This document shows positions 9,297 to 55,133 of a DNA stretch of 64,000 bases, piece after piece; within the stretch, counting starts at the first letter, position 1, and the number at the start of each line of letters is the position of its first letter. The notes below the pieces were generated by a model, which saw only the letters and a list, made by a program, of their open reading frames with translations, ran no database searches and was not told the origin of the DNA. The position numbers were made by a program, and so were the translations under genes. Location: positions 186,001-250,000 of the forward strand of contig NZ_AUGR01000001.1 in the NCBI RefSeq assembly GCF_000422765.1, read 5' to 3'. The DNA comes from Neptunomonas japonica DSM 18939 (GTDB taxonomy: Bacteria > Pseudomonadota > Gammaproteobacteria > Pseudomonadales > Balneatricaceae).

Positions 9297-9300
9297 GGGA

Positions 9301-37814: not shown

Positions 37815-38039
37815 GGTGAGACCTTTTTTATTTTTATTATCAGACGGTTAAGTGATAATTATTTTGCATAACTATGTTTTATCAGTTGTTTGAATATAGA
37901 TCAATTTTTTTTGTTTTCCGTAGACCCAGATGTTCCATGGGATGGATCCAGAAGGGACAAAGAGATAACGCTAGTTTAAATAGCACAATGAATACGTTAG
38001 TTAGTATAGAAGATAACTGGAATACAAAAGGCATCATAA

Positions 38040-38256
38040 GTAGATATCGTTGATCTAGGGTAACAGCTGCACAGTCATACACTTAAAGATGGTTTACGTC
38101 TGCAATTTTTCTGTTGTATAGAAAGTAAAGAACCCACCTAGGTTTGAAACCAAAAACACTCAACAACGAACTGAAATATATCAGAGCTGTATATAATGAA
38201 TTGATAGCGCTAGAGCAATTGAACTATGTAAATCCGCTAGAGAAAGTCAGACGGTT
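38040..38256 (+). pseudogene. Remnant of an integrase gene related to the one at 55134
   Basis: This stretch matches about 55310-55595 of the intact integrase at the DNA level: GATATCGT, a CTTAAAGATGGT block, then CTGCAATTTTT, GTTGTATAGAAA, AGGTTTGAAACCAAAAACAC, ATAGCGCTAGAGCAATTGAA and AGAAAGTCAG. About 75 bases between the second and third block are missing here, and both ends of the gene are gone. Same strand and same side of its att site as in the intact element. The right end is cut exactly at the stop of the yoeB-like gene. It shows that a related element stood here earlier. Confidence 0.88.
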
Positions 38257-38515
38257 ATGTGCCGTAGTGGTAGCGTAGTTGAGCGATCAAAATCGTATCA
38301 TCCTGATGTTTGTACACAATTCGATGTTCATCATTGATACGTCGCGACCAGTACCCTGATAAACCATGCTTTAAAGGCTCAGGTTTTCCAATGCCTTCAT
38401 TTGGGCTTCTTTGAATATCTTTAATTAACAAGTTGATACGTATTAGTACTTTCTTATCGGTAGTTTGCCAGTAGAGATATTGTTCCCAGGCTTGAGTCGA
38501 GAACGTTAACTTCAT
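38255..38515 (-). CDS. yoeB: YoeB-family mRNA interferase toxin
   Basis: 86 residues, the normal size. Catalytic residues of YoeB are in place: Glu46, Arg65, His83 and Tyr84 near the C terminus (RYHYGT). It cleaves mRNA in the ribosomal A site when free of YefM. Start overlaps the antitoxin stop by four bases. It sits in the remnant of the older element, so it may be kept by addiction. Confidence 0.93.
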   Translation of the reverse strand: MKLTFSTQAWEQYLYWQTTDKKVLIRINLLIKDIQRSPNEGIGKPEPLKHGLSGYWSRRINDEHRIVYKHQDDTILIAQLRYHYGT

Positions 38516-38763
38516 TCAAGAAGTTCTCTTTCTGTTCCGTTACCCGTTTCCAGTTCAGCAATAGACTCTAATAGGTTTCTAGCGTTGGCTGGAGACCTGA
38601 GTAGATATGTAGTCTCTTCCATTGCGTTATAGTCTTCTAAAGACATCATTATGACGGGGGCTTCATTTTTGCGAGTGATAATTATAGGCGCATGATCATT
38701 GCAGACATTTGCCATAGTGCTCGCTAAATTTGCTCTAGCTGCTGTGTAGCTTATTGCATTCAT
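38512..38763 (-). CDS. yefM: YefM/Phd-family antitoxin
   Basis: 83 residues. N-terminal AISYTAARANLASTMANVCND is the DNA-binding Phd/YefM domain; the C-terminal ELETGNGTERELLE tail would wrap the toxin. First gene of the pair, with an operator upstream. Confidence 0.92.
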   Translation of the reverse strand: MNAISYTAARANLASTMANVCNDHAPIIITRKNEAPVIMMSLEDYNAMEETTYLLRSPANARNLLESIAELETGNGTERELLE

Positions 38764-38928: not shown

Positions 38929-39028
38929 TTTCGACACATGCAGTAATTCTTAAACGCTAGACATGAAAAAGGCCTGTAAAAACAGGCCCTTATCATTATT
39001 TTTTGGTGGGGTGGCGGGTTTCGAACCC
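38929..39028. repeat. attL: direct repeat containing the tmRNA 3' end
   Basis: This about 100-base segment recurs at 57552-57651 with about four differences (one C/T, one A-run length, T/G, one G indel). It carries a TTTCGACAC block, the GGCCTGT...ACAGGCC terminator of ssrA and the last about 25 bases of the tmRNA (GGTGGCGGGTTTCGAACCC as read on the + strand). Beyond 39028 it departs from the tmRNA. Confidence 0.92.
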
Positions 39029-39130: not shown

Positions 39131-39180
39131 TTTCGACACTTTATCGACACATGAGTAGTATCAAAATATTAAGTGTCGAT
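39131..39180. repeat. Integrase arm-type site candidates near attL
   Basis: TTTCGACAC at 39131, TATCGACAC at 39142 and the inverted AAGTGTCGAT at 39171. The same TTTCGACAC pair occurs at 57541-57560 beside attR and singly at 38929. They are likely sites for the integrase or excisionase. Confidence 0.6.
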
Positions 39181-39188: not shown

Positions 39189-40853
39189 TTACGCTAGCTC
39201 TAGATCGAATTGATTTAGCTCTAAGTTTTCTGGATCGGCTTTTTTTGTATTCTTATAATCCGGGTTGTCAGTAAAATCTGGTTCTTCGCGATTTATTATT
39301 GCTTTGACAATCTTAGCAATTTTAAAAGCTAGTAGAGGAGGTACTGCATTACCTACTTGCTTAAATTGCTCTGTCCTTGGCCCTTGGAAAAAATAATTAT
39401 CAGGGAACGTCTGTAATCGTGCAGCTTCTCGGACAGTAAGACTACGACATTGGCCTGGATCTGGGTGAATAAAGTAGTGTCCGTCTTTTGATATGTGACT
39501 AGTTATTGTCGTAGATGGGGTTTTAAATAATTGCACACGAAAACGGTCAGAAAACTTCCCAGTTTCCCAATTCTTATGCTCAGGTCTTAAACCAGGCAGA
39601 GCAAATTCTTTATGCCCCTTAGGCGATTTATCTTTTGTTAGAGCAAAGCAAGATGCATAAACATATCTTCTAAGGTCCTCTGACATGTGACCACGAGATT
39701 GGTGGTTCAGCCATACTTTTAATTTGTTGCTATCTTTTTGATACCACGCATTAAAAACTGGGTTGTCCATAGACGATAGGTCATGAAGTTCTTTGCAATA
39801 TCTAAGGCTTCCAAAATCACTTCTTTTTTTGATTTCTCTTTTAGCTTTTTTCAGGTGAGGAATCATGCCTTTTAGTTGAAGCTCTGAATGACTAGTAATT
39901 TCTGACACTAGATCATCTATATGATCAGAAACAGTGATCTTCCAATCATTAGGCGTGTCTTTGCTCCTGCTTAAAGTACTTCTTATAGGAGGAATGCCTT
40001 GAATAGCTTCTTGAACACTTGCAGGTGCTTCTCGTTTCAGAATCCCGCTAGATACTGATATGTCTTCACGGATTCCAAGAAGGATGACTCTGTGCCTTGC
40101 TTGTGGAATTCCATAATTTTCAGATTTTATAATAAATTTTCTAGCATCAAATGCTTTTGGGTTATCGCCGTAATGAAATGTTTCACCGGTAACAAGCGAA
40201 CAAATTCGGTATCGAGTGTTGGCATCACCTTCCTCGAATCCTAGTGCTTTATTCGGATTAGACAGGTCATTAAGAATATCGTGAAAAATTGGTCTTCCAT
40301 GAACTTTGGAAGAAAGAATGCCTTTCACATTTTCCATGATAAACACGGAAGGTGAGTGCTTTTGAATAATCTTCAAATACTCTTTGTATAGAAAATGCCG
40401 GTGATCATCTTCAGCCTTGTAATCTACATTGCCTTTGTTTCGAGCTCGGCCCACTAATGAGTATGCCTGACAAGGTGGTCCTCCAATGAGAACCCAATCT
40501 TTGTTTTTGTTATGAAGAGCTGCTTGAGTAATTTTTTCTTCTAGCTCTAAGTTGCCTTCCTCTGAGCCAAGTTTTATTTGTCTTGCCTCTTCTTCAGACC
40601 TTATCCAAAGGTCTTCAGTTTGTTCACTATATGCTTGATCTGTTTCACCATTACAAAACTGATAGTAATCACTTAAAAGCTCAGGTCTTTCCTTTTGGAG
40701 TAAACGAAAAAAAGCTCTTAGTTGTAAGGTTGAACGGGCGTGGGTATCCATCTCGGCTGAGACAACAATCTCAAAAGAGTTTTCAAGTGAAGAAAAGCCT
40801 TCACCTAGCCCTCCAGGGCCAGCAAATAGGTCGATAATTTTAGTTTCAGACAT
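39189..40853 (-). CDS. DNA (cytosine-5)-methyltransferase
   Basis: 554 residues from the ATG at 40853 (an earlier in-frame ATG adds 15 residues with no similarity). All C5 motifs are seen: I KIIDLFAGPGGLGEGF, IV GGPPCQAYSLVGR with catalytic Cys128, VI FIMENVKGIL, VIII IPQARHRVILLG, IX RSLTVREAARLQTFPD, X FKQVGNAVPPLLA. A target-recognition region of about 200 residues sits between VIII and IX, so the enzyme has its own sequence specificity. Divergent from the small gene and ATPase operon to its right; it is the likely self-protection half of a restriction-like module. Confidence 0.95.
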   Translation of the reverse strand: MSETKIIDLFAGPGGLGEGFSSLENSFEIVVSAEMDTHARSTLQLRAFFRLLQKERPELLSDYYQFCNGETDQAYSEQTEDLWIRSEEEARQIKLGSEEGNLELEEKITQAALHNKNKDWVLIGGPPCQAYSLVGRARNKGNVDYKAEDDHRHFLYKEYLKIIQKHSPSVFIMENVKGILSSKVHGRPIFHDILNDLSNPNKALGFEEGDANTRYRICSLVTGETFHYGDNPKAFDARKFIIKSENYGIPQARHRVILLGIREDISVSSGILKREAPASVQEAIQGIPPIRSTLSRSKDTPNDWKITVSDHIDDLVSEITSHSELQLKGMIPHLKKAKREIKKRSDFGSLRYCKELHDLSSMDNPVFNAWYQKDSNKLKVWLNHQSRGHMSEDLRRYVYASCFALTKDKSPKGHKEFALPGLRPEHKNWETGKFSDRFRVQLFKTPSTTITSHISKDGHYFIHPDPGQCRSLTVREAARLQTFPDNYFFQGPRTEQFKQVGNAVPPLLAFKIAKIVKAIINREEPDFTDNPDYKNTKKADPENLELNQFDLELA

Positions 40854-40990
40854 GAAGCGATTGTACCATGACAGGAAGCGCTGCCAGGATAGCAGCACCT
40901 CTGTTTTGAGGCAATCAGCCTATTAAAGTAATTTTGCTCGCAATGAGCACTACCATTAGTACATTGTTAATGTTTGATAGAAAATGTTTG

Positions 40991-41017
40991 GTTAGTATAT
41001 ATTAAATATATACTAAC
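40991..41017. promoter_or_regulatory. Perfect 27-base palindrome between the divergent methyltransferase and cargo operon
   Basis: Outer arms GTTAGTATATAT and ATATATACTAAC pair perfectly, with the inner three bases TAA completing the symmetry around 41004. It lies 19 bases ahead of the small gene and 138 bases from the methyltransferase start. Position and symmetry suggest a repressor or controller-protein operator that balances methylation and restriction genes. Confidence 0.8.
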
Positions 41018-41035
41018 AAATGTACGGTGATTAAT

Positions 41036-41251
41036 GTGTCTAGGGATAAGTTCGTAGATCTTGCGGAAAAAAGAGTGTCTAAAGCACTTAAAGACATACG
41101 TCTAATAGGTAACTTGTCTAATCGATCTAACTATACATATACTGATGAAGATGTAAGAAAAATTCATCAAGTAATGAAGAAAGCTGTTGAAGAAATGAAG
41201 GGGCGTTTCGATAGAAAAGGCTCTGAAGATGAAGACGTATTTAAGTTGTAA
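41036..41251 (+). CDS. Small helical protein, first gene of the cargo operon
   Basis: 71 residues from the GTG at 41036, which has GGTGA six bases upstream; an earlier GTG at 41027 lacks a ribosome site. Highly charged: MSRDKFVDLAEKRVSKALKD and IRLIGNLSNRSNYTYTDEDV, with a Lys/Glu-rich helix after it. No motif recognised. Its promoter overlaps the 27-base palindrome, so it may be a regulator or a small subunit. It is read with the ATPase gene 55 bases downstream. Confidence 0.7.
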   Translation: MSRDKFVDLAEKRVSKALKDIRLIGNLSNRSNYTYTDEDVRKIHQVMKKAVEEMKGRFDRKGSEDEDVFKL

Positions 41252-41305
41252 TAGCGGACTTTAAGTTTCTAGACGTAGATATATTTCAGGGATAGGAGTT
41301 TTACA

Positions 41306-43246
41306 GTGGATTGGTTTTTTCCGTTATCGAATGGTGGTGAAGAGCAGGGGCTTAATGAATCTGGTGTTCAGCAGTTCAAGAGGCCTGAATCTTTAGGGCG
41401 AGAGACGTGCCAAAATATTGGTGATGTCCGTGATCAGTCAGGACAACCCGTTATAGCTGAGTTTGAGCTAGTTCATCTTCCTAGTGATGAGTTTCCAGGT
41501 AAGGATAAGTTCATTGAGTATTTTTCCGAATGTCGGGACTACGTACTTAAAGGGCTACCAAACGGCACTGGGAATGAAAAAACGTTCTTCGATAACGGAT
41601 TAAGTATACTTTGTTCCAAGACGATACCGGTTCTACGAATTGGTGATTATCATACTACCGGCCTAGTGGGTCAGGATTCGGAAAGAACTCAACCCTTTTT
41701 TAGATTGTTGAAACAGCAAGGTGCTAGCTCTTCACAAGGTGTAGGGGGAGGAACCTTTGGTATTGGTCAAAGAGCTCCTTTTGCTCACTCTGCACTTCGT
41801 ACAATTTTATACTCAACTAAAACTGAAAAAGGTGATAGAGCATTTATTGCTAAATCTATATTAGCGAGCTTTCCCCATCCTGATCATAATGGAGAAATTA
41901 CACAGGCTAAGGGTTGGTGGTGTAATCCATCAGAGGATGGAAAGGAATGGAGTGCTATTCGTGATACACAAAGTATTCCTAGAAGGTTCCAAAGAGATAC
42001 AGTAGGGACTGATTTATGGATAACTGGGTTTGATTCTCAGAATTGGGAGCAAGTAATTAGGCACTCAGTTTTAGAGCATTTCTTTGCTGCCATACAAAGG
42101 AAGCAGTTTATAATTCGCTTTGTTGAAAATGGTAAAACTATTAGAGAAATCTCTTCTGTGAACCTTGAGCAGGAGTTATTAATTGCCGTAAATGAATCAC
42201 GTAAGCTGAATAGTAAACAGCAGCATCTCAAAGGGCTAGGCTCAACACTGTATTTTTATAAAGCACTAGAGTTCCCGTATCAAGGTAAGCCCTTTGAAAA
42301 AGAAATTTCCAAAATTGGTAAGGTTAAATTCTATCTATATCGTGATGTGAACAATCAAGAACTTCCTGAAAGATGGGCAACAATGCGACTTCCTTTGATT
42401 ATGGTCGAGAGTAAAGGGAGTACTTTATTGAGCAATTTTGCAGGTTTATTCATTTGTGATAACGATGAAGGAAATACATATCTTGCCCAGTTAGAGGGGG
42501 CGACGCATGAGTCGTGGTCTGAAAAGGAAACTCGTAATTGGTCTCATCTGGCAATGAAGGAAGCGAAAGGTGTACTTAGGCAAATTACTTCATTTGTAAG
42601 AGATGTGCTGAAAGAGGTCCGTGGGGCAAACATGAAAGAGCAGGAAGATATTCCAAATCTCGGGCGTTACTTGCCTGCAGAGGATAGCTCTGAGAGTGAA
42701 GGCCTAGGCGGAAGTGAGCTAGCTGGTGAAGGTACGACCGTTGAGACAGGGGAAAAGAGGAGCCGGGAAATACACCAAATACTGATACCTAATAAAGTAT
42801 CAAACCGCTCAAGCTTGCCTAAGAAAAAGAAAGGAGGTGGAAGTGGTTTGAACCGAAGAGAGGTAGGAGAAAATAAAGGGGGAGGAACCAAGCGCGATAG
42901 CACTAGGATAAAAGTTAGTTCCCCAGGGATTGGAGATGAGCCCAAAGAAAATCCAATTTTATCTAATCAGAATGTTCGTTTTAGAAGCTTTAAAGTTGAG
43001 GGTGGCTATAAAGTTGTGTTGGAGGCTAAGGCTGATTTATTTGGTGATCTTCAATTGAAAGCGATTGGTGAGGGAAGTGATTTTCCTGTTGAGCTTAATT
43101 CAGCGGATGATTTAGGTGAAGGTCGTAGTTTGCAGATAGTAGCGAATTTAGTTAAAGGTCTTGAGTTAAAGGCCGGTATCAAAACTTCACTATTGATAAA
43201 TGTTGATGGTCATACCGATCTTTGCTTAGCGATGGGGGGAGCATAA
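41306..43246 (+). CDS. GHKL-type (Hsp90/MutL-like) ATPase of the cargo system
   Basis: 646 residues, GTG start. Probable Bergerat-fold motifs: N-box-like LGRETCQNIGD (Glu33, Asn37, Asp40), G1-like RIGDYHTTGL (Asp114) and G2-like GGGTFGIGQRA (147-156). A middle region with folded alpha/beta pattern follows, then a linker of low complexity rich in Gly, Lys and Ser (about 470-550, for example KKKKGGGSG) and a C-terminal domain of about 90 residues. Its stop overlaps the next start (TAATG). By the Hsp90/MutL comparison it would act as an ATP-driven clamp or sensor on DNA; function here is inferred. Confidence 0.82.
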   Translation: MDWFFPLSNGGEEQGLNESGVQQFKRPESLGRETCQNIGDVRDQSGQPVIAEFELVHLPSDEFPGKDKFIEYFSECRDYVLKGLPNGTGNEKTFFDNGLSILCSKTIPVLRIGDYHTTGLVGQDSERTQPFFRLLKQQGASSSQGVGGGTFGIGQRAPFAHSALRTILYSTKTEKGDRAFIAKSILASFPHPDHNGEITQAKGWWCNPSEDGKEWSAIRDTQSIPRRFQRDTVGTDLWITGFDSQNWEQVIRHSVLEHFFAAIQRKQFIIRFVENGKTIREISSVNLEQELLIAVNESRKLNSKQQHLKGLGSTLYFYKALEFPYQGKPFEKEISKIGKVKFYLYRDVNNQELPERWATMRLPLIMVESKGSTLLSNFAGLFICDNDEGNTYLAQLEGATHESWSEKETRNWSHLAMKEAKGVLRQITSFVRDVLKEVRGANMKEQEDIPNLGRYLPAEDSSESEGLGGSELAGEGTTVETGEKRSREIHQILIPNKVSNRSSLPKKKKGGGSGLNRREVGENKGGGTKRDSTRIKVSSPGIGDEPKENPILSNQNVRFRSFKVEGGYKVVLEAKADLFGDLQLKAIGEGSDFPVELNSADDLGEGRSLQIVANLVKGLELKAGIKTSLLINVDGHTDLCLAMGGA

Positions 43247-44076
43247 TGATTCAAAGTGGAATGTCTTACCCTCATCCGGTTTTAGGGAATGGAGATGATA
43301 TCTCTTCTGGGGAAGAGTTAATTCTTCCTACGATTACATGCAATATTTTTGATGAGGCTATTAGCTTACAAATTACAGAGCTAGAGGCAAAGCATGAGCA
43401 AATTGATGCCTTAATAAAGTCGGGGGATGCAGCCTGGCTCATTCGTGTAAATTGCCCAAGAACATATTACAGAGAAGCGTTTATATCAACAGATGTTCAT
43501 TGGGAACATAAATTTGATGGGCCAGATTTTATTGGGAAAGTTGTAATTGAAATTAGTGTTGTAGCTTTGAAGCCAGTTGAAGGCTACGCTCCCGAAGGAA
43601 TGCATTCTGATTACGAAGGGGCAACTTTCAATATTAACTCTGGCGAGCTTATAGCTATTGCTCCCTCATACTCTTTTCTAGCCGAAAAAGACTTTGATGC
43701 TTTAAAGGCTCCAGTGGCATCTTTGGTGAAAATTGTAGAAGGCGAAAATGACATAGGGCCATTTGAATGCAGTTACGATGATGACCTTATAATAGTTACT
43801 CTTTCTAAAATAGATTGGTCTGAATATGCAGCAATAAGGGACCGGGTTTCAACTACTTTACATACCTCGATTGTGTTGCCTGTCTTAGTCGGAGCTCTTT
43901 ATTATTTAGAAGAACATGGTACAGGAAGTACGTGGACTGATCGGTTAGAAGAGATAGTTAATCGTCTGGATTTAAGCCTAGATAATCCGTTGATGTCTGC
44001 CCAGGAAATTTTATCTAATCCTCTTCAGAGAGCTTTTACTGAAGTGAATAAAGAATTAGATAAGAGGAGTAGTTAA
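43246..44076 (+). CDS. Cargo system protein B, unknown function
   Basis: 276 residues from the ATG at 43246, which shares its A with the TAA of the ATPase gene; an earlier in-frame ATG at 43222 is less likely. N-terminal SYPHPVLGNGDDI looks like a conserved motif; the centre carries IKSGDAAWLIRVNCPRTYYR and FDGPDFIGKVVIEI. No nuclease motif seen. It ends in a TAATG overlap with the next gene. Translational coupling on both sides suggests subunits in equal amounts. Confidence 0.75.
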   Translation: MIQSGMSYPHPVLGNGDDISSGEELILPTITCNIFDEAISLQITELEAKHEQIDALIKSGDAAWLIRVNCPRTYYREAFISTDVHWEHKFDGPDFIGKVVIEISVVALKPVEGYAPEGMHSDYEGATFNINSGELIAIAPSYSFLAEKDFDALKAPVASLVKIVEGENDIGPFECSYDDDLIIVTLSKIDWSEYAAIRDRVSTTLHTSIVLPVLVGALYYLEEHGTGSTWTDRLEEIVNRLDLSLDNPLMSAQEILSNPLQRAFTEVNKELDKRSS

Positions 44077-44861
44077 TGAAGCCGCTTGAAATTATATCTT
44101 CTAAAATACTAAGTGAGATGAAGGATGCTCTAGAAAGGGATGGGGGAGTGTCAATTTATCAAAATGATGAATCCTATCAGGGGTTAGAAGGTAAAATATT
44201 GCTCCCTACTACTATGAAGGTAAGTGAACCAGCTCCTATCCTAGAAGTGTATGGAACAAGAGGGGAAGAGTTAAATGATGCTGAAAACGCAATTAAGGTT
44301 TATGAGTTTTTAGGCGCACTAAATAGAACTCAGGCAGCTGATCTTCGGTTATGGGTTACGTTAACTCATACAGTTTTTTGGGAGTATTGCCGAAAGCGTT
44401 GGACTGCTATTGGTAGCACTAACTATGTTTTAGAGCATTGGTTTGAAAAGAAGGGGGCTGGATTAGGCGCACTTAGACGTAATTCCATCTCTAGATTGTG
44501 GTGGGCCGCTCATCTTACTGTTGCTCCTTGGGAAGGCAAAGGCAAGAAAGAATACGAAATTTTTCAAGACAGTGATCGTGCAATTTACACCGGAATCCTG
44601 CTTTCTCAGCAGCAAATATTTTTTGATGTTTTAGAGCGAAGCTACGGTAGTAATTCAAAGATAAGAATATGTCTTTTAGATGCCTTGAAAGAATACCTGC
44701 CTCAAGTAACTAATAAAGATGGCCTATCTCGGGAGGTTTCAAAGAAACTGAGATTGGTTTTGAAAGGTCGCCACTTAGAAGCTCTTCCGGTTATTGAACT
44801 TAAAAAAATAATGCATAACTTGGTAGAATATGAAGCTGAAAATTTAGTGAGGGTAGAGTAA
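44076..44861 (+). CDS. Cargo system protein C, unknown function (resembles DUF6339)
   Basis: 261 residues, mostly helical. Tryptophan-rich middle: LRLWVTLTHTVFWEYCRKRW, LEHWFEKKG, ISRLWWAAHLTVAPW. From memory it resembles DUF6339 proteins found beside methyltransferases and ATPases; this was not checked. ATG overlaps the preceding stop. Confidence 0.72.
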   Translation: MKPLEIISSKILSEMKDALERDGGVSIYQNDESYQGLEGKILLPTTMKVSEPAPILEVYGTRGEELNDAENAIKVYEFLGALNRTQAADLRLWVTLTHTVFWEYCRKRWTAIGSTNYVLEHWFEKKGAGLGALRRNSISRLWWAAHLTVAPWEGKGKKEYEIFQDSDRAIYTGILLSQQQIFFDVLERSYGSNSKIRICLLDALKEYLPQVTNKDGLSREVSKKLRLVLKGRHLEALPVIELKKIMHNLVEYEAENLVRVE

Positions 44862-45024
44862 ATTAAGATGCTACAGTATTTCAAGTAGTTGATGAGGGAG
44901 GTGTTATATGTGTACATTGAGTAAATAAAACAAGGCATGATAATTTTATTGTCACATATTTTATACAATTGTTATATAAATCATCATACATAATTAATTA
45001 GTTGTTTAAATTGAAAAGGAATTC

Positions 45025-46824
45025 ATGAAGAATAAAATATTAGACTTGTCCAAAAATGAGTTGGATGGTGCTCTATCTGCACTTCCTAAGGATGATTTAA
45101 ATAAGTTTATTTTGTTTACGGAAACAATGCGTATTCTTGACTATTGGTCAGTATTTAGAGATATTCTTCCAAATAAGTATTCACTATCTATTCCTGATTT
45201 CGAAATATTAAAACTTGGATGGAATTTAGCACTGGAGCATCTTTATGTTCCTGTTAAGACTAGCGGATTTCCAATAAAAGAAAGCACAGAAGAGACAAGG
45301 ATTTTTGCAACAAGCCTTTTACATAAATTTGGCCGGTCTGTGTTACTTAATAGAACGTATGACATGTTGAATGCTGGATTTGTTTCTGCAGAAATAAAAG
45401 GTTCAAAGATTGTTATCAGAGTAGCTGAGTATTCTGGTAACCAATTCATGGATAATCTTGAGTTTAATCTTCTTTCAGGAATGGAGCAAAATATAAGTAA
45501 CAGCTTGGGGTCTTATCTAAATGGATGGCATATTGGGGAGTATGATGATCCATTAACTGAAATGAACATGCCGGGTGCTTATTTCCTTCAAGATTCAAAA
45601 AAAGAATTTAAAAAATACCATTTAGATGATGTTGATGAGTTAATGGGAAATCTTGTTTTTCCGTGGGACTCAGGTAATGGGGTAATGATGGGTTACGATG
45701 CTCTTCCTGAGCTTGATAATCATTTTTTTTCAATTGCTGTTGAAGGTGCTATCAGCTGGAGAAATGATGTTGGTATACATCCATCGGTTCAGCTGAATGG
45801 TGTTACAGGTTCTGAGTTAACCTTAATTGTTGCTGTGGTCTCTTCACTACATATGAAACATGTAGGATTTGCACTGTCCGCCATGAAAAAAAATAAGACT
45901 ATATCAATACCGCAGAGTTTAACTATATGGACAAAAAAATCCGAACTTATAGACTCTATACAAGCACTCGTTAATTTAGATAGGGATACTATTAAAAGGG
46001 GAGTTGACTCTATAACATTAACTCCTTTTGAATCTGTTAATATTAATGGTCATACTACTCCATTCATTCCGATGCTTGTTGATCTTGGTAATGGTATGTT
46101 GTTGCGTCCTGTTTCAAGCCTTATTAGAAACCCTTTTATCTCTACTTCAACACTACAGGGTTGGAGAACACCTAATATTACAGATATCCTTTCTCAGCCT
46201 CGAGAAGACTGGATGAGAGACGATTTATATTATTTATTTAAAGGGACAAAGTATAAAGTTATAGATGGTAATATTAAAATCAGAAATGGGAATAAAGTAG
46301 TTACAGATATTGACGCAGCTATATTAGATAGGACAACAGGTGAGCTGGCGTTGTTTCAAATAAAATGGCAAGACTATTATACAAATGATATTAAAAAGTT
46401 ACGTAGTAAGGCGAAAAATTTTATCGAAGAAATAGACAGCTGGTCTTTTAAGGTAAGCTCGTGGATAGAGGAAAATGGATTGCAAGCTTTAGTCGATACT
46501 CTTCGATTAAAGTTACCTAAAAACAAAAAAATAAATAAGGTTTACTTGTTTGGTTTATCTAAGACGTCAGCTAGAATGGCAGGGTATGGTTATAATCTAA
46601 ATTCTAATAATATTGCGGTATGTAATTGGCCTATGTTTGTCAGAATAAGATTCGAAATTGGGGCGTCAAAACGTGTATTTCATGATTTATATACGGAAAT
46701 AAAGAAAAATAAAGACAATAAAATTAAAGCAATACCTCTGTCTGTTGAAATAAGTTCTAATGAAAGTGTTATAGAGTTCATCGATTTGTGGAATGATTTT
46801 TCTAATTATGAAGACGGCGAGTGA
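45025..46824 (+). CDS. Cargo system protein D with a probable Mrr-like PD-(D/E)xK nuclease domain
   Basis: 599 residues. Near residue 430 the sequence reads VVTDIDAAILDRTTGELALF followed by QIKW (Gln445, Lys447). Asp430, hydrophobic strand with Gln-x-Lys is the Mrr-type variant of the PD-(D/E)xK core; REDWMRDDLYYLF about 25 residues earlier may supply the leading helix. The N-terminal 400 residues are of unknown fold. It follows the coupled trio after a 160-base AT-rich gap, so it may have its own promoter. Candidate restriction endonuclease of the module; not proven. Confidence 0.75.
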   Translation: MKNKILDLSKNELDGALSALPKDDLNKFILFTETMRILDYWSVFRDILPNKYSLSIPDFEILKLGWNLALEHLYVPVKTSGFPIKESTEETRIFATSLLHKFGRSVLLNRTYDMLNAGFVSAEIKGSKIVIRVAEYSGNQFMDNLEFNLLSGMEQNISNSLGSYLNGWHIGEYDDPLTEMNMPGAYFLQDSKKEFKKYHLDDVDELMGNLVFPWDSGNGVMMGYDALPELDNHFFSIAVEGAISWRNDVGIHPSVQLNGVTGSELTLIVAVVSSLHMKHVGFALSAMKKNKTISIPQSLTIWTKKSELIDSIQALVNLDRDTIKRGVDSITLTPFESVNINGHTTPFIPMLVDLGNGMLLRPVSSLIRNPFISTSTLQGWRTPNITDILSQPREDWMRDDLYYLFKGTKYKVIDGNIKIRNGNKVVTDIDAAILDRTTGELALFQIKWQDYYTNDIKKLRSKAKNFIEEIDSWSFKVSSWIEENGLQALVDTLRLKLPKNKKINKVYLFGLSKTSARMAGYGYNLNSNNIAVCNWPMFVRIRFEIGASKRVFHDLYTEIKKNKDNKIKAIPLSVEISSNESVIEFIDLWNDFSNYEDGE

Positions 46825-46853: not shown

Positions 46854-47045
46854 GTAGATGGCGGAATGCAAATGTTTTATTTGTGTGAAGTTATGGAGTA
46901 ACTCTATATGCATTAATAATTATTTTTTAAATGTTAATTGTTGTACTCGCTTTACCTATATCACTGAGTAACTAGGTTAGTCTTATAATCTGGTTCTTGT
47001 CTGCACTGCGCCCCTATCGGTACCACTTTTCCCTTATCCGTTGCG

Positions 47046-47318
47046 CTAGTCGGTAGCCGTCCCTGTTCTGCCGTATTCACTCACAGTCTCTTTTAAATCC
47101 GGGCTTATTTGCCCTGCTTCAGGGCATGTCTTTCCTGTAATTAGCCATAAAGCATATTCAGGAAATAGCTTGGCTAATTCCTCTGCTTCATCAACTCCCA
47201 TCCTTGCTCTGCCGCGCTTAATGTTCGACCAGCGTGCGTACTCTTTTGTGTGAGGTACTGCCAGTTTTTGCATGTCTGCTTGTTCTAGTAATAGCAAAGC
47301 TCTATCGGTTGCACTCAT
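47046..47318 (-). CDS. Phage repressor-like DNA-binding protein
   Basis: 90 residues. The middle resembles the helix-turn-helix of small phage repressors: EYARWSNIKRGRARMGVDEAEELAKLFPEYALWLITGK (residues 27-64; the family form is R-x-R-M-x-x-x-E-L... FPEYALWL). Divergent from the early phage genes and facing three operator-like repeats, the place of the repressor in Pf phages. Confidence 0.75.
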   Translation of the reverse strand: MSATDRALLLLEQADMQKLAVPHTKEYARWSNIKRGRARMGVDEAEELAKLFPEYALWLITGKTCPEAGQISPDLKETVSEYGRTGTATD

Positions 47319-47338
47319 TCTATTGAAAAATCCAATTG

Positions 47339-47395
47339 TTGTACTATGTACAAATTAAGCACATGTTTGTACTATGTGCATTAGTACTATGTGCA
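47339..47395. promoter_or_regulatory. Triple operator in the phage control region
   Basis: Three copies of GTACTATGTRCA at 47341, 47369 and 47384. The first is part of a perfect dyad TTGTAC-TAT-GTACAA (47339-47353). They sit between the divergent repressor and the early phage gene, and are the likely repressor sites. Confidence 0.8.
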
Positions 47396-47430
47396 AATAC
47401 ATAGCAACAACTAATTATAGAGGCGCAACG

Positions 47431-47640
47431 ATGGAACAACAACCGATTACCCCCGTATCGATCCCCATGCCGCCTCTAATGCAGTGGCGCGAATTCGCAG
47501 ATTGGATACGTATGGAGCATGGCGTAGTACGTGGTTGGCTGGATAACGGCTACATCCCTACTCAACGAATTGGAAAACATCTGCTCGTTAACGTGGCTCT
47601 CTTATCCAAAAATTTATTGGAAAAGGATGACTTGGTTTAG
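47431..47640 (+). CDS. Small DNA-binding protein (excisionase/regulator type), phage early gene
   Basis: 69 residues from the ATG at 47431, which follows GAGG; the longer frame from 47374 would run through the operator repeats. WREFADWIRMEHGVVRGWLDNGYIPTQRIGKH is a MerR/excisionase-like helix-turn-helix. Probably the excisionase or an early regulator. Confidence 0.72.
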   Translation: MEQQPITPVSIPMPPLMQWREFADWIRMEHGVVRGWLDNGYIPTQRIGKHLLVNVALLSKNLLEKDDLV

Positions 47641-47673
47641 TCACTTATCAGTAGGGATAAAGAGGTGAAAGGT

Positions 47674-47889
47674 ATGGATATTAGCGGTGTATCAAATCAA
47701 GTCCCTTTAATGGACAGGTCTAAATTTGCTGAAGAAATTGGTATTTCTTTAGGTTCTTTAAACGAGATGATCAGAAAAGGTTATGTCCCTGTCATCCGTC
47801 TTAAAAACCAACATGGCAGAACAAAAAGGTCACTCGTTAACCTGGCTGCACTTCGTGTCACTTGCTTGGCAGAGGAGGGCGAGTCATGA
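47674..47889 (+). CDS. Small helix-turn-helix phage protein
   Basis: 71 residues from the ATG at 47674 (GAGGTG upstream; a GTG at 47665 is also open). MDRSKFAEEIGISLGSLNEMIRKGYVPVIRLKNQHGRT has the same layout as the preceding gene, so the two look like paralogues. Its stop overlaps the next start (ATGA). Confidence 0.7.
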   Translation: MDISGVSNQVPLMDRSKFAEEIGISLGSLNEMIRKGYVPVIRLKNQHGRTKRSLVNLAALRVTCLAEEGES

Positions 47890-48446
47890 ACGTTCTTGTA
47901 GCGTGTGAATTTACTGGTGTAGTTAGAGATGCTTTTATCTCTTGCGGTCACAATGCCATGTCATGTGATCTTTTACCTTCAGAATCCAATGCTGGCCCAC
48001 ATTATCAAGGCTCTGTGTTTGATCTTGATTTGACCTCTTATGACCTTGTTATAGCGCATCCTCCTTGTACTGCTTTATGCGTCTCGGGCAATCGTTGGTA
48101 TTCAAATTCTGAGGAACGTTACCAGGCTGCGTTATTTGTTGGGGAGCTTTGGTCCCGAGTCACGTCGCGGCTTTGTCTTGAAAACCCTGTGGGCGTTATC
48201 AATACGTTATTGCCTCATCTACCTAAACCGCAATATATCCAGCCTTGGCAGTTTGGGCATGGTGAAACCAAAAAGACGGGGCTTTGGCTTCGTGGCCTTT
48301 CTCCTTTATCACAAACGAATGTTGTATCTGGTCGTGATAATCGCATTTGGAAAATGCCACCTTCAAAAGACCGCTCAAAGCTTCGTTCATTGACATACCC
48401 AGGCATTGCCGATGCGATGGCTACTCAGTGGGGAGCCTTATCATGA
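47886..48446 (+). CDS. Cytosine-methyltransferase-like phage protein
   Basis: 186 residues. VLVACEFTGVVRDAF and DLLPSE recall the SAM-binding half of C5 methyltransferases; DLVIAHPPCTALC supplies the PPC catalytic motif IV; SLTYPGIADAMATQWG ends the protein. It is far shorter than a full methyltransferase and has no obvious target-recognition domain. Proteins of this type are common in phages, and it may modify DNA or bind it. Coupled to both neighbours by ATGA overlaps. Confidence 0.75.
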   Translation: MNVLVACEFTGVVRDAFISCGHNAMSCDLLPSESNAGPHYQGSVFDLDLTSYDLVIAHPPCTALCVSGNRWYSNSEERYQAALFVGELWSRVTSRLCLENPVGVINTLLPHLPKPQYIQPWQFGHGETKKTGLWLRGLSPLSQTNVVSGRDNRIWKMPPSKDRSKLRSLTYPGIADAMATQWGALS

Positions 48447-48907
48447 GAAACCCTCGCTTTCCTATCTTCCGTAAATTCTGCGCTGATGCGTGTAAAAAGC
48501 CACTGGTTACACAAGATGAATATCTCAAAGCCATTGATATGTATTTAGATATTTCTCGTGCGGGGAATGGTTCATCTAGAAGAGCTAACCTTCGCTGGGT
48601 TCAATTAGTAGCACACAAGTATTTAAGAACATCGGTATTAAGTGAATCTCACAACTACCCTCGTTCTGTGTTTATGGCCCTTAAAAGCCATAACCGTACC
48701 GTCTCCCGACACACTGCTAGTCCTCAAGACACTAAAAGCGGTGGGGGGCGTTCGAGTTCTCACCGACTCGGACGTTATAACAACCCGTTCCAAGGTGAAT
48801 TCTTCAAGCGGCTGACATCCGTTAAAACTGTCCGGGCTCTAGTCTCTTCATACCTTACTGGGAGTCCGTTAAATACTGATGAGGTTGTACACAATGTACG
48901 GCCTTAA
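48443..48907 (+). CDS. Phage protein of unknown function
   Basis: 154 residues. Basic and helical N-terminal half (FRKFCADACKKPLVTQDEYL, ANLRWVQLVAHKYLRTSVLS), Ser/Arg-rich middle (KSGGGRSSSHRLGRYN). No family recognised; coupled to the methyltransferase-like gene. Confidence 0.6.
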   Translation: MRNPRFPIFRKFCADACKKPLVTQDEYLKAIDMYLDISRAGNGSSRRANLRWVQLVAHKYLRTSVLSESHNYPRSVFMALKSHNRTVSRHTASPQDTKSGGGRSSSHRLGRYNNPFQGEFFKRLTSVKTVRALVSSYLTGSPLNTDEVVHNVRP

Positions 48908-49286
48908 CCTACAACACGCTCCAGGCGAAGTCTGCACACGCTGCAAAGCTGTGTTTGATAACGATAAGACCTTTGCAGCGTTTATCGACCCTTATTTTAA
49001 TCGTGGTGCTTTGACTCTTTTTGGAGCTGAGTGTTGCAAAAAATGCGCTGAATCAATCCAGCGTTGGGGGACTGTTGCCCGCACTCAATATGCCACGGCT
49101 TACGGTATTAACGACCTGAACCTAGTACCTGTTCATGTGTGCTTAGTTTCCTGGTCTAGCTGGTGTCCGTTGTCTTATGAAACGTTCGGACTCCTCAAAC
49201 GCCCCACACTAACAGCGTTTATCAATTCTCAAATTAAAGGTGAATATCATGGAAATCTCAATGCAAGTAATCGTTACAGCGGCTAA
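48894..49286 (+). CDS. Cysteine-rich phage protein of unknown function
   Basis: 130 residues from the ATG at 48894 (GAGG upstream; an earlier ATG at 48879 is open). Four CxxC-like cysteines: GEVCTRCKAVF and GAECCKKCAESI suggest a zinc ribbon. Overlaps the genes on both sides. Confidence 0.6.
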   Translation: MYGLNLQHAPGEVCTRCKAVFDNDKTFAAFIDPYFNRGALTLFGAECCKKCAESIQRWGTVARTQYATAYGINDLNLVPVHVCLVSWSSWCPLSYETFGLLKRPTLTAFINSQIKGEYHGNLNASNRYSG

Positions 49287-49557
49287 ACGTTACGACTTCG
49301 ACGGTAACAAAGGCGCTCAGGTCTACACACTCGGCGACATGATCGAAGAAGACGATCGTATCGGTTGCCCCGTCATGAAACTAACCGCTGAATACGGCGT
49401 TGTGGATAACTTACGCGGCGTTAAATTCCCCGCCAAATTCGATCTTAAATGCAATGTCCAGGTCGGCGCAAAAGACTCAATGAAGTACCACGTTATGAGC
49501 GCTATGCCGGTCTTATCTGGTCAACAAGAAAAGGCTTCTCAGCCTGCCAAGGCTTAA
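49249..49557 (+). CDS. Filamentous-phage ssDNA-binding protein (gene V-like)
   Basis: 102 residues, AAAGGTG upstream of the ATG. MQVIVTAAKRYDFDGNKGAQV and the small beta-rich body with Gln/Lys-rich tail fit the gene V family of inoviruses, which coats single-stranded phage DNA. The position (before the coat genes) matches Pf phages. Identity by layout and resemblance, not by search. Confidence 0.75.
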   Translation: MEISMQVIVTAAKRYDFDGNKGAQVYTLGDMIEEDDRIGCPVMKLTAEYGVVDNLRGVKFPAKFDLKCNVQVGAKDSMKYHVMSAMPVLSGQQEKASQPAKA

Positions 49558-49574
49558 CGGGTGTCGATAGCGGG

Positions 49575-49614
49575 CCGTTTTCAGAGAGTCGCTGTTCACT
49601 CATCTGAAAAACCG
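49575..49614 (+). other. Stem-loop before the coat gene block
   Basis: CCGTTTTCAGA and TCTGAAAAACCG pair with one bulge across a 17-base loop, between the ssDNA-binding gene and the first coat-block gene. Confidence 0.45.
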
Positions 49615-49655
49615 CAAACGCACGGACTTAACCAGAACACGTAACGCGGTGAACT

Positions 49656-49883
49656 ATGAATTATCTCGGATGTGAAGGAAGTATTAGCGTCTCCAGCGAG
49701 GGTGCTCCTTTGTGTTCGGATGGTTGGCTTGTCGTTTCTCAGGAAGCGTTAATCCAACAAACAATGGCTCTCTCTCAGGCTGATGCAGCTGAGTTATGGC
49801 CGTTGCTCTTGGGCCTCCTAATGCTAGGTGCGTCTATTAAAATTTTGCGAACTGTTTTTTCGCAACCATTGAAAGGTAACTAA
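49656..49883 (+). CDS. Small phage membrane protein, minor coat candidate
   Basis: 75 residues with one C-terminal membrane helix (LWPLLLGLLMLGASIKILRTVF) and no clear signal peptide. Located directly ahead of the major coat gene, the place of gene VII/IX-like proteins. Function inferred. Confidence 0.65.
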   Translation: MNYLGCEGSISVSSEGAPLCSDGWLVVSQEALIQQTMALSQADAAELWPLLLGLLMLGASIKILRTVFSQPLKGN

Positions 49884-49885
49884 TC

Positions 49886-50113
49886 ATGAATATGAAACTT
49901 GCAGGGCTGGGTCGTCAAGGCTGGAAAAAAGTCGCGGTTGCATCTGTCATCGTGACTCCTTTGGTAACTCAAGTGGCTCATGCTGCACTGGATGCCGCTG
50001 TCACTACTCAGGTTGCAACAACCTCTGCTGATATCACTGAAGCGGGTACGTTGTTGGTAGGTCTGGCAGTAGTAGCAATGGGTATGCGTTGGCTTAAAGC
50101 TACGTTCTTCTAA
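49886..50113 (+). CDS. Major coat protein (pVIII/CoaB-like)
   Basis: 75-residue precursor. Basic N terminus, hydrophobic signal, cleavage after AHA, then a 40-residue mature protein with acidic head, one membrane helix (AGTLLVGLAVVAMGMRWL) and basic KATFF tail: the classical filamentous-phage major coat layout. Followed by a strong terminator. Confidence 0.9.
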   Translation: MNMKLAGLGRQGWKKVAVASVIVTPLVTQVAHAALDAAVTTQVATTSADITEAGTLLVGLAVVAMGMRWLKATFF

Positions 50114-50132
50114 TCGTCCTTTGGTTAACTCG

Positions 50133-50158
50133 GGGGGCGTTCTTACGTCCCCTTTTTT
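50133..50158 (+). terminator. Central terminator after the major coat gene
   Basis: GGGGGCG / CGTCCCC with a TTCTTA loop and TTTTTT. Ff phages also terminate strongly after gene VIII. Confidence 0.85.
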
Positions 50159-50172
50159 GTTTAGGGGGTCAC

Positions 50173-50241
50173 ATGTTTATTGATGCGCATACCTTAGTAC
50201 TTGTGGTGGGTTTGGTCTCGTTAACGATAGCGGTGTCCTGA
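50173..50241 (+). CDS. Tiny membrane protein, minor coat (pVII/pIX-like) candidate
   Basis: 22 residues (MFIDAHTLVLVVGLVSLTIAV...), entirely one membrane helix. GGGGGTC upstream is a possible ribosome site. Its stop TGA overlaps the ATG of the pIII-like gene (TGATG). Minor coat proteins VII and IX of Ff phages are about 32-33 residues of this kind. It would be missed by ordinary length cutoffs. Confidence 0.65.
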   Translation: MFIDAHTLVLVVGLVSLTIAVS

Positions 50242-51836
50242 TGAATATTCACTACTTAACAAAACCTAACTTCAAGCCTCACCCGCTTAACTATGTGTTC
50301 ATGGGGGTGTTTTTCTTTCTCGGTTTTTTGCCTGCCAGTGATGCATTAGCGGCGGATAGTTACTTTACCTATGCTGGTTTAAAACTCACTTCTTCTATTC
50401 AATCATCATGCGTGATATATGCAGACTTCAAATATACGGGTGGCCCGACTCATTTCGAATATAAAAACGCACGGGGCTCAGGGTCTAATTGTCATATCAT
50501 TTATTACTCAGGGGGTACGGCGGGTTCTGGTGAACGTAATTCTTATATTACGTTCAGCTCTGTTACCTGTTCAGCCAGTGCCCCTTATTACTCTGAAAGC
50601 TCCCGTTCTTGTACTTCTACTGCTCCGGTTCCTGATGCCCCTGAAAATTGTTCTGATCTAGCCGGTCAAACCTCATCAGTTCGATCCGGTAACTTATCAC
50701 TGTGTATTTCAGGTTGTCTTGCGGCTACGGGGGGCGGTGTCACTGTGTCGATTGGTGATACAAAATCACTCAATACCTACACCTATACTGGCGATACCTG
50801 CAACACCACACCCAACGTACCTTGGCAGCAACAATTCAAAGATGTTTTCGATGGTACTGATCATCAAGAACCGTCAGAAACGGAAGCTCAAAAAGATGAT
50901 GGTGATCAGCATTCTTGTTATACCGTCGATGGTAAGTATTTAGGTCGTGTTTCTATAAAAGTTAATTGCCCAACTGATCAACAGCGTTGTTATAACAACG
51001 AAACGGGGAAATTTACTAATACCATAGGGCCTGGGCAATCCTGTGCAACCGGTGCCAGTACCAAGCAAGCGGCGGATCGTGACACGCTTAAAAAGTGGAA
51101 TGAGAACACTGTCACCAACCCAGATGGTTCAACAACAACGACTACAACAGAAATAACGACTGAAACCGGCGCTGATGGTTCAAAGCACACCACCACAACG
51201 ACCACTACCGGTGGTAAAAATGCTGATGGTACTGATAAAGAAGAAACAGAAACCACGTCTAAAAACTCATCTGATACCAATGAAAATACCAAAGAGACTA
51301 TCTCAGGTTTAACCAACTGCGGGACTAAACCTAAGTGTGCAGGTGATGTTCTGGATTGCGCTTCTATTCAAATCCAATGGGCAACCTATTGTGACGGACA
51401 AGGTGCTGAAATTGGGGGGTTAGATAACTGTGCTTCTGCTCCTGTCTGTAAAGGAGATGCTATTCAATGTGCTCAGGTGTATCAGAACTGGAAAGCATCA
51501 TGCCAAATGTCACAGACAAAATTAGATGAGGCGTTAACCAACTCTGATTATGTCGCGGCTAAAGCGGGGGCCGCCTTGGATGACAGTGGTGGGCTCTCAG
51601 GTATCTATGAACAAGTTAATGTTAATGATGCGTTAAACCTCGGCTCTGTACTGGGTGACAATGGCCGTTCCGGTTCTTGCCCCGCTGATGTCCCTTTGCC
51701 TTTCTCAATGGCAACTCAATATTTTAAATACGATTCTATTTGTCAGATGATGGATGCCTTGCGTCCGCTTGTCCTGTTTGCGGCGGCATTCTTCTGCGTA
51801 ATGATGATTTATCGTGGAATAGTGGAGCAAACCTAA
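50241..51836 (+). CDS. pIII-like adsorption protein (CoaA/TspB type)
   Basis: 531 residues: signal peptide (about 1-37, cleavage near SDALA), variable N-terminal receptor part, Thr-rich low-complexity region (about 296-350), two tandem about 30-residue Cys modules (CGTKPKCAGDVLDC at about 360 and CASAPVCKGDAIQC at about 396), and a C-terminal membrane helix (PLVLFAAAFFCVMMIY). This is the adsorption protein at the virion tip. The N-terminal third is likely to define host range. Confidence 0.87.
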   Translation: MNIHYLTKPNFKPHPLNYVFMGVFFFLGFLPASDALAADSYFTYAGLKLTSSIQSSCVIYADFKYTGGPTHFEYKNARGSGSNCHIIYYSGGTAGSGERNSYITFSSVTCSASAPYYSESSRSCTSTAPVPDAPENCSDLAGQTSSVRSGNLSLCISGCLAATGGGVTVSIGDTKSLNTYTYTGDTCNTTPNVPWQQQFKDVFDGTDHQEPSETEAQKDDGDQHSCYTVDGKYLGRVSIKVNCPTDQQRCYNNETGKFTNTIGPGQSCATGASTKQAADRDTLKKWNENTVTNPDGSTTTTTTEITTETGADGSKHTTTTTTTGGKNADGTDKEETETTSKNSSDTNENTKETISGLTNCGTKPKCAGDVLDCASIQIQWATYCDGQGAEIGGLDNCASAPVCKGDAIQCAQVYQNWKASCQMSQTKLDEALTNSDYVAAKAGAALDDSGGLSGIYEQVNVNDALNLGSVLGDNGRSGSCPADVPLPFSMATQYFKYDSICQMMDALRPLVLFAAAFFCVMMIYRGIVEQT

Positions 51837-52144
51837 TGCCTTTTATCATGGCTTTTATCTTCTCAATTGCTGGCCCTCTTGTCTGGACCATCATCCGTTT
51901 AATCGGTGTCTCTGCTGTCACCTTCGTGGGTATGAATATAGCGGTCTCCTTTGCTGTCGATTTCGTGATTGATAACTACAACAGCTTGCCTGCTGTTTTA
52001 TTACAACTCATGGATTTAGCGGGTGTTAACTCGGCGATGGTGATGGTTGGTTCCACCATGTCTACCGTTGCCACTTTCAAAGCAGTCAACCGATTGAATT
52101 CAGTCTGGCGTGCTCCGGGCTCTAACAAGCCATTGACGGCATAA
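51836..52144 (+). CDS. pVI-like minor coat/membrane protein (DUF2523 type)
   Basis: 102 residues from the ATG at 51836, which shares its A with the stop of the pIII gene (TAATG); longer frames from 51740 overlap pIII. Three hydrophobic stretches. The order pIII, pVI, pI is that of inoviruses. Confidence 0.85.
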   Translation: MPFIMAFIFSIAGPLVWTIIRLIGVSAVTFVGMNIAVSFAVDFVIDNYNSLPAVLLQLMDLAGVNSAMVMVGSTMSTVATFKAVNRLNSVWRAPGSNKPLTA

Positions 52145-52154
52145 GGGGAAAAGC

Positions 52155-53201: not shown

Positions 53202-53428
53202 TCTACTTATTTGTAGTCCTATTTTTAACCACATCAAGCGTTGATGCTGCGGATCGCCAGCTCAGTGAATGCCAGTACCTGGTAACTAAGTTAGAACAGA
53301 TTAAACAGGCCAAACGAAAGGGCGGCTCTTCCAGGTACATGAACGCACTGAATCGAGAAAGGCAGAATATTAATAAGACCTACTACAAGCTTCGTTGCTC
53401 GATGACAAAAGAACTATTAAAGAGGTGA
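53198..53428 (+). CDS. Small secreted phage protein
   Basis: 76 residues with a signal peptide (cleavage near VDAA). Mature part helical and basic with a Cys pair (CQYLVTKLEQIK ... KLRCSMTK). ATG overlaps the Zot stop. Function unknown; two-Cys layout fits a periplasmic assembly helper. Confidence 0.7.
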   Translation: MIYLFVVLFLTTSSVDAADRQLSECQYLVTKLEQIKQAKRKGGSSRYMNALNRERQNINKTYYKLRCSMTKELLKR

Positions 53429-53431
53429 TCT

Positions 53432-53689
53432 ATGAAAATCAATATTGATGTGCCGGTTGAGCAAGTCTATGTCGATCTAGAGCGTGTGGTATCTATGCTG
53501 TTTACGGCTGAAACGGTATCAACGGCTTTCGTGGTTGCGTTTGTTCTGGCAGCTTCAAATATCGTCATCAAGCATACGTTTAATTATCGGTATAGCAGAG
53601 ACAAAGAGGTCATGCTGTTAGAGGCTGAGAATACCCGTCTTGCTAACCTGCTTTTAAAATTATCCGTTTCCACTAAAAGTAATGACTAA
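53432..53689 (+). CDS. Small phage membrane protein
   Basis: 85 residues with one central membrane helix (TAFVVAFVLAASNIVIKH) and a charged C-terminal coiled coil (EVMLLEAENTRLANLLLKL). No family recognised. Confidence 0.65.
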   Translation: MKINIDVPVEQVYVDLERVVSMLFTAETVSTAFVVAFVLAASNIVIKHTFNYRYSRDKEVMLLEAENTRLANLLLKLSVSTKSND

Positions 53690-53706
53690 ATCTCTAATGC
53701 GACGCG

Positions 53707-55126: not shown

Positions 55127-55133
55127 TGAATCG

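Follow-up and report, generated by a model that had tools for sequence, protein, structure and literature searches.

A candidate methylation-guarded defence module with a GHKL ATPase, carried by a filamentous prophage of Neptunomonas japonica

In bacteria, DNA methyltransferases (MTases) mark self, and PD-(D/E)xK proteins cut. GHKL ATPases of the MutL, Hsp90 and MORC kind close around DNA or partner proteins upon ATP binding. AbiR, one of the systems compared below, is a three-gene operon, AbiRa-c. This paper examines a locus of Neptunomonas japonica DSM 18939 in which a C5-cytosine MTase faces an operon of five genes, s-A-B-C-D, with A a predicted GHKL ATPase and D a putative nuclease, all of them carried by a filamentous prophage. 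The whole stretch of DNA analysed (contig NZ_AUGR01000001.1, positions 186,001 to 250,000) is 64,000 nucleotides long and is referred to as the window; coordinates are positions in it.

The theme of a GHKL ATPase combined with a C5 methylase and Vsr is known (Iyer, Abhiman and Aravind 2008, PMC2292703; PMC8011034). The likeness of the locus to the MORC and paraMORC1-5 restriction-modification (R-M) systems lies in a GHKL ATPase that goes with C5 methylases, Vsr and restriction-endonuclease-fold nucleases (PMC2292703). A gene for a superfamily 2 (SF2) helicase lies in about 70% of MORC neighbourhoods (PMC2292703), whereas the present system has no SF2 helicase gene as a constant partner; a helicase is absent among the eight window proteins scanned (Pfam, PADLOC, NCBIfam), and ResIII is found in 6 of 80 neighbour proteins of the relatives described below. 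B and C, moreover, go unmentioned in the available part of PMC2292703. In VcSduA, a GHKL ATPase is fused to a PD-(D/E)xK nuclease, and both sites are needed for defence, E27A and K557A each abolishing it (PMC12137116). A similar pairing is predicted here, but it is divided between the separate genes A and D, and D matches no SduA model.

AbiR of Lactococcus lactis is likewise a multi-gene defence operon, and a neighbouring methylase keeps it from acting on the host (PMC2661086, PMC3985639, PMC10925250); the associated methylase is needed to protect the host (PMC2661086). AbiRc is classed as an SNF2-family helicase (PMC10925250), whereas A-B-C has no helicase, and for this reason A-B-C is not taken to be the AbiR of L. 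lactis. The mza systems are also R-M-linked and of GHKL type, and MzaB matches 4 of 80 neighbour proteins of A-B-C loci, but no mza model is among the PADLOC matches listed for the eight window proteins. DISARM differs too, as a preliminary description of this DNA had held: the MTase alone resembles a DISARM part (its best PADLOC model is DrmMII, 3.8e-92), and the rest of the locus leaves drmA/B/C and the helicase-type models unmatched.

Almost the whole length of the window proteins A, B and C is covered by their matches to the three models of PDC-M33, an uncharacterised candidate that is a catalogue entry in PADLOC 2.0.0. They also share its contiguous A-B-C order, which is TAATG-coupled in the window and kept in relatives; a Lactococcus trio likewise matches PDC-M33A/B/C. 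The window form differs in being joined by D and in lying inside a filamentous prophage, and the PADLOC models miss D and see s weakly as something else. The combination had been put forward as an unnamed system. This stands in so far as a text search, with most subscription literature outside its scope, found no paper describing PDC-M33 or DUF6339, and PDC-M33 is unmentioned in the available parts of PMC11514479, PMC12988326 and PMC12548924; it does not stand in so far as A, B and C correspond to a candidate already in a catalogue. What is new is the variant with D, carried by a prophage; A-B-C is a candidate that is catalogued and, as far as text searches show, undescribed.

The MTase gene and the operon that it faces are laid out as follows, all open reading frames (ORFs) being open at these positions:

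39189-40898, minus strand: C5-cytosine DNA MTase; PF00145 E=1.2e-47; 569 amino acids (aa) from GTG
41027-41251, plus strand: s, 74 aa, operon gene 1; a partner kept in about half of the relatives
41306-43246, plus strand: A, predicted GHKL (Bergerat-fold) ATPase, PDC-M33A; PADLOC 8.1e-103
43246-44076, plus strand: B, PDC-M33B; PADLOC 2.6e-41; start given by the ORF caller, TTG 43222
44076-44861, plus strand: C, DUF6339 / PDC-M33C; PF19866 1.5e-32, PDC-M33C 1.9e-28
45025-46824, plus strand: D, 599-aa putative nuclease; E394...D430...Q445-I-K447

The genes lie as the preliminary description had placed them, and its two TAATG couplings are real: the ATG of B at 43246 shares TAATG with the stop codon of A, and B and C overlap in the same way at 44074-44078. 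Residue M9 of the TTG-started form of B is nearly invariant among relatives, and ATG 43246 is most likely the true start. The MTase is intact by family match and motifs. Its likelier start is the ATG at 40856, which gives 555 aa (from translation), and the large region between its motifs could hold target recognition. A promoter scan gave 23 sites against 25.8 expected, and hence no signal. For s, six homologues lie upstream of A (29-53% identity); it has no family above the cut-off in Pfam or NCBIfam, and one weak PADLOC match (0.008).

How far this set recurs was surveyed in other genomes. In a scan of genome contigs 254 relatives of A passed, and the survey uses the best 80. With eight loci from plasmids, a further genome locus and the window these make 90 loci, a count that omits the short-flank loci of a class search for A, in which 15 of 369 genomes matched (L004-L018 in our numbering of loci), and the divergent loci L122-L126. 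For the relatives, ORFs are our own calls and profiles are home-made, with class tags beyond A, B, C, s, C5 and Vsr built on one to three seeds; the s model was built without the unrelated L. salivarius row L021 and under a stricter limit. Because the loci were found through one glycine-motif pattern, they favour A proteins close to the seed, and they are not independent: L025/L026, and L094-L096/L099/L102, look like close relatives.

Across the 90 loci B is found in 89, C in 84, s in 47, a C5 MTase in 61, Vsr in 23 and D in one, the window. B is absent only from L091, and C from L025, L086, L088, L091, L100 and L109; none of these belongs to the 56 loci that have more than 3 kb on either side of A. 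In the well-flanked 56, B and C are always present (56 each), s is found in 31 and Vsr in 16. A C5 MTase lies within 9 kb in 48 and any MTase in 51, in agreement with the earlier statement that the ATPase set is tied to a DNA methyltransferase. For comparison, a PF00145 match occurs anywhere in the genome in 14 of 56 genomes of the class, and in the genome of N. japonica itself all three PF00145 match pieces sit on the window MTase gene. When A proteins are grouped by single linkage at 45% identity, the 23 fully flanked groups contain B in 23, C in 23, a C5 MTase in 21, s in 16 and Vsr in 9.

The arrangement is equally regular. A and B share a strand in 89 of 89 pairs (median gap -17) and B and C in 84 of 84 (median gap -4), and the A-B-C gene order recurs across phyla. 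This recurrence, with the strong matches to PDC-M33A/B/C, argues that the module is not due to chance. In 42 non-redundant loci out of 50, the distances of A, B and C co-vary (r 0.88-0.91), and those of the MTase co-vary with them (r 0.64-0.67, part of which shared host ancestry can account for); a shuffled control had a mean of 0 and a standard deviation of 0.05-0.06, and 0 of 2000 shuffles reached the observed values. Judged from these sequences, the recurring unit is A-B-C, often with s, and tied to DNA MTases. The A-B-C cassette is probably an uncharacterised anti-virus system.

A sister branch (L122, L123, L125 and L126) has distant A proteins (5e-19, 4e-35, 9e-31 and 2e-22) with s and a C5 MTase, and Vsr in three of the four; L123, L125 and L126 have two further downstream genes of B/C size with little sequence likeness. 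In L124, an s homologue precedes an 852-aa protein (6664-9512) that has no family match and contains a DCGEG motif. Since s occurs both with distant A proteins and with this 852-aa protein, it may serve several such systems as a common adaptor.

A is a GHKL ATPase of the Bergerat fold, as judged from its motifs and its predicted structure. The Bergerat-like residues named in the preliminary description are invariant in an alignment of 58 sequences, the window included; the motif set comprises the N-box (E33, N37, D40), the G1 aspartate D114 and the glycine motif 149-154 (G149, F151, G152, G154). The AlphaFold model of A has a mean predicted local distance difference test score (pLDDT) of 83.0, with the lid (144-153) and a linker (462-545) below 50, and ends in a C-terminal beta domain. 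A Foldseek search of the PDB matched it best to TRAP1 (4.5e-9), other Hsp90s, a topoisomerase subunit (1.7e-6) that we take to be topoisomerase VI-B, MutL (4.5e-6), GyrB/ParE and SMCHD1 (1.1e-4). A has no Pfam match.

The model of B (mean pLDDT 89.0) is beta-rich with a helical C-terminal part. Its Foldseek matches are generic, of the fibronectin type III (FnIII)/immunoglobulin (Ig)-like kind only, with template modelling (TM) scores by query of 0.18-0.26, so that no function is claimed for B; a nuclease-like match is absent among the 50 matches listed. In C, W93, W142 and W143 are invariant (62-sequence alignment). With nothing nuclease-like among those matches of B and no PDB relative for C, A-B-C shows no evident effector.

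D is a different case. Residues E394, D430, Q445 and K447 are invariant in seven sequences, namely the window protein and six relatives of 18-42% identity, so the signature D430...QxK (445-447) noted earlier stands, now with E394. The pattern is the one that a PD-(D/E)xK-type site of the QxK sort would show, and D is a putative nuclease. It has no match in Pfam, PADLOC, NCBIfam or PHROGs, and the earlier label 'Mrr-like' lacks the backing of a family match, since D gives no Pfam match at E 0.1. Relatives of D occur in 5 of 72,556 plasmids, 5 of 398 genomes of the phylum (its own included), 1 of 50,697 phage records and four viral contigs. One of the viral contigs encodes a D identical to that of the window; L128 and L129 encode one identical D and therefore count as one phage.

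The company of D varies from locus to locus. L023 and L024 each have a relative next to Vsr and a DndH-like protein. So does L151, an unverified 'phage' record; its large protein and that of Shinella L023 share 97% identity. In L118 (42% identity) Vsr and also mzaC/D/E are near, in L120 type I R-M genes accompany the relative, and in L129 it lies among tailed-phage-like genes (judged by eye) without A-B-C. A C5 profile run on the D-relative stretches L023, L024, L117-L121, L128-L130 and L151 found a C5 MTase in L121 only, about 5 kb from D. Because its company varies in this way, D is not part of PDC-M33; on present alignments it is a mobile family of putative nucleases outside that candidate. 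As a separate observation, the DndH-like protein, Vsr and a D relative form a recurring trio without A-B-C in L151, L023 and L024.

The surroundings of A-B-C are similarly mixed. The A gene is found in 21 of 72,556 plasmids; in viral contigs six stretches fitted a search pattern for A, but none of them proved to be a relative. On a Deinococcus plasmid the cassette lies by dcm and Vsr; on an Arthrobacter plasmid by dcm, Vsr, a restriction endonuclease (REase) gene and Shedu, the last just after C; on an L. salivarius plasmid by MmeI-type and adenine MTases; on a Priestia plasmid by a Sau3AI/MutH-type REase and dcm; on a Lactococcus plasmid by an AlwI-type REase and Dam-type MTases; on a Paenarthrobacter plasmid by an REase and dcm; and on a Planococcus plasmid by an AlwI-type REase, Vsr and dcm. 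Some neighbour genes of A-B-C are defence genes. The slot after C holds differing large genes, D in the window and Shedu in Arthrobacter. In seven loci (L084, L089, L090, L093, L103, L106 and L110) C is followed directly by a gene of one family, whose proteins measure 892-1067 aa, or 471 aa where a contig end truncates them; these genes start no more than 25 bases from the end of C. An eighth member lies before A in L067, and for the L106 member there is a weak match to Sigma70 region 4. This family is a possible alternative effector or regulator.

Six loci, five of Paenibacillus and one of Evansella (L044, L046, L048, L049, L083 and L085), have a HATPase_c_3-type protein family near A-B-C, with the Pfam match given by L085, membership assigned by blastp, and the gene split in two in L083. 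A second C5 MTase is present in five of the six.

Taken together, family knowledge and the precedent of VcSduA speak for an ATPase switch that is guarded by methylation and fitted with a swap-in nuclease: a phage defence, gated by the ATPase and carried as cargo by a filamentous prophage, in which D is the swap-in part. This reading is preferred tentatively, with its chance put somewhat short of even. The C5 MTase would mark target sites in resident DNA. The proteins s, A, B and C would form a complex with A as an ATP-operated GHKL clamp or switch partnered by B and C. What this complex engages would be DNA without the mark, or a DNA-bound signal without it, and once engaged it would turn on an effector, the A-B-C core having no fixed nuclease. 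D, of PD-(D/E)xK type and encoded after C, would be the swap-in nuclease that cuts unmarked DNA, and other proteins would take this part at other loci. We infer the formation of the complex, the sensing of missing methylation, the role of D as effector and the outcome as phage defence. Two further findings support the proposal: relatives of D lie beside or near Vsr in L023, L024, L151 and L118, and the plasmid cassettes lie near varied REases (AlwI-type, Sau3AI/MutH-type and others).

This proposal is complicated by several results that weigh against it. D is present in none of the 89 loci other than the window, and its relatives elsewhere come without A-B-C; the earlier view of the five genes as one set is not sustained. 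D also has no translational coupling to C, as 163 bp separate the two genes. No MTase was detected by the models used in 5 of the 56 well-flanked loci (L057, L063, L072, L081 and L098). The TM-scores behind the Foldseek matches of A are low (0.14-0.32 by query, 0.17-0.50 by target), PDB sequence searches with A, B, C and D gave no relative, the best E being 0.18, and hhalign of A against five MORC-type ATPases, with a shallow profile, returned a probability of 0.5%. Finally, the MTase is contiguous with A-B-C in 33 of 50 fully flanked loci, and in 10 of the 50 the resulting block is bounded by opposite-strand genes or by gaps of more than 250 bp. In L027 and L028 the opposite-strand neighbour is an REase gene, so at most eight of the 50 loci have a block without an evident partner, as judged from those block neighbours that are identified; the L027 block depends on an adenine-MTase tag. 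Since the blocks are bounded and the REases varied, no nuclease is a fixed partner.

Several of these points feed the alternative that ranks second, after the methylation-guarded switch with a swap-in nuclease. Here A-B-C, with s, and the MTase would be the whole system, blocking phage or killing the cell when the mark is missing, and D, housed in the same cargo slot, would be a nuclease defence that stands alone and works independently. The absence of D from all 89 other loci fits this, as do the D relative without A-B-C in a tailed-phage contig (L129) and those beside unrelated systems, and the up to 8 of 50 flanked loci in which an MTase and A-B-C block has no evident partner. AbiR, where a methylase is needed for host protection, is a functional parallel (PMC2661086), but it differs from the trio in its SNF2-class helicase AbiRc (PMC10925250). 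Against the alternative, C and D lie on one strand, in that order, within one pair of attachment repeats; many A-B-C loci have R-M genes near, and seven share the large gene right after C; and no effector is evident in A-B-C, given the Foldseek matches listed for B and the lack of a PDB relative for C. That the blocks number no more than eight, and that L128 and L129 count as a single D, each weaken it slightly and leave our estimate where it was: rather unlikely, and behind the switch.

A less probable arrangement, and one we consider improbable, is that the MTase and D are an ordinary two-gene type II-like R-M pair, with s-A-B-C a separate accessory cassette of the kind that sits beside R-M systems. 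A-B-C does lie near several differing R-M pairs, L127 included, and relatives of D accompany Vsr, a mark of C5-methylation loci. The co-variation of the MTase with A, B and C over the 42 loci speaks against such a pair and argues for a lasting partnership with the cassette, though shared host ancestry can contribute to it; and among the D-relative stretches read with the C5 profile, a C5 MTase was seen in L121 only.

The methylation-guarded switch is proposed as cargo, and the element that carries it is bounded by repeats of the 3' end of ssrA:

38929-39028: left attachment repeat, a copy of the ssrA 3' end; direct repeat with 57552-57652
39131-39153: second repeat, 23 bp, TTTCGACAC...; pairs with 57541-57563
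47049-56135: filamentous prophage body, by PHROGs and Pfam matches; a repressor-like gene and genes of helix-turn-helix size
52155-53201: Zot
53846-55126: phrog_1159 protein
55134-56135: tyrosine integrase
57541-57652: right attachment repeat, ssrA 3' end; direct repeats
57627-57985, minus strand: ssrA (transfer-messenger RNA)

Between the attachment repeats, which are 18.6 kb apart, lie the module, the genes of the filamentous phage, the tyrosine integrase and a Fic protein. Zot, the integrase, the repressor and the repeats bear out the earlier call of a filamentous prophage; the coat-like gene has a weak match only (5e-4). The 23-bp repeat pair may delimit a younger element. At 38034-38250 lies what is left of a second integrase, 82-88% identical to parts of the integrase at 55134-56135, which suggests an older element at the same ssrA site. 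Also observed were a YefM-YoeB toxin-antitoxin pair (38255-38763) just beyond the left attachment repeat and, inside the prophage, a gene of a phage-type DNA methyltransferase family (phrog_757, 47862-48446).

A congener (G752, locus L147) has a sister prophage at the same site. Blocks of 64-85% identity align window 47018-56116 with L147 4559-13230, and L147 1109-1335 matches the left repeat of the window. The cargo slot differs: 7.9 kb from the MTase to D in the window against 3.2 kb in L147, where the cargo (1428-4085) consists of a SocA/Panacea-domain gene (1.3e-14) and genes for 135 and 391 aa. A was found in 1 of 29 related genomes, that of N. japonica only. This distribution, with other cargo in the sister prophage, marks the module, by comparison of the sequences, as exchangeable prophage cargo. 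A precedent for a link between filamentous prophages and defence is the KKP module, which controls Pf prophages and mediates phage defence (PMC11341870).

That the module instead serves the prophage, as an addiction or superinfection-exclusion cassette with post-segregational killing as methylation fades, is very improbable: the exchangeable, prophage-borne slot, the Panacea-type antitoxin-like gene of the sister copy and the ability of R-M systems to act as selfish elements (PMC8011034) would suit it, but A-B-C occurs in many settings, the 21 plasmids included, and some of its neighbours are defence genes, and prophage-serving and defence roles can coexist.

Returning to the methylation-guarded switch, a more general form of it may be considered, in which A-B-C is a helicase-free immune switch of a separate kind, a GHKL clamp with one beta-rich and one DUF6339 partner, that reads the lack of one MTase's mark, D is one plug-in among interchangeable effectors placed after C, and filamentous prophages trade such modules through an ssrA-side cargo slot. 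This wider proposal is doubtful, and less secure than the local one. What can be said more firmly is that A-B-C is widespread, to judge by the 254 relatives of A in the genome scan, is tied to MTases and came without a description in text searches. The window holds a compact copy of it in which A and D both have residues that are candidates for catalysis, and its prophage and the sister prophage form a natural pair with swapped cargo. If missing methylation is indeed what is sensed, this would be a restriction logic that puts a GHKL clamp in the place of the helicase or translocase, and it would be relevant to the way in which MORC-like ATPases couple DNA methylation to action.

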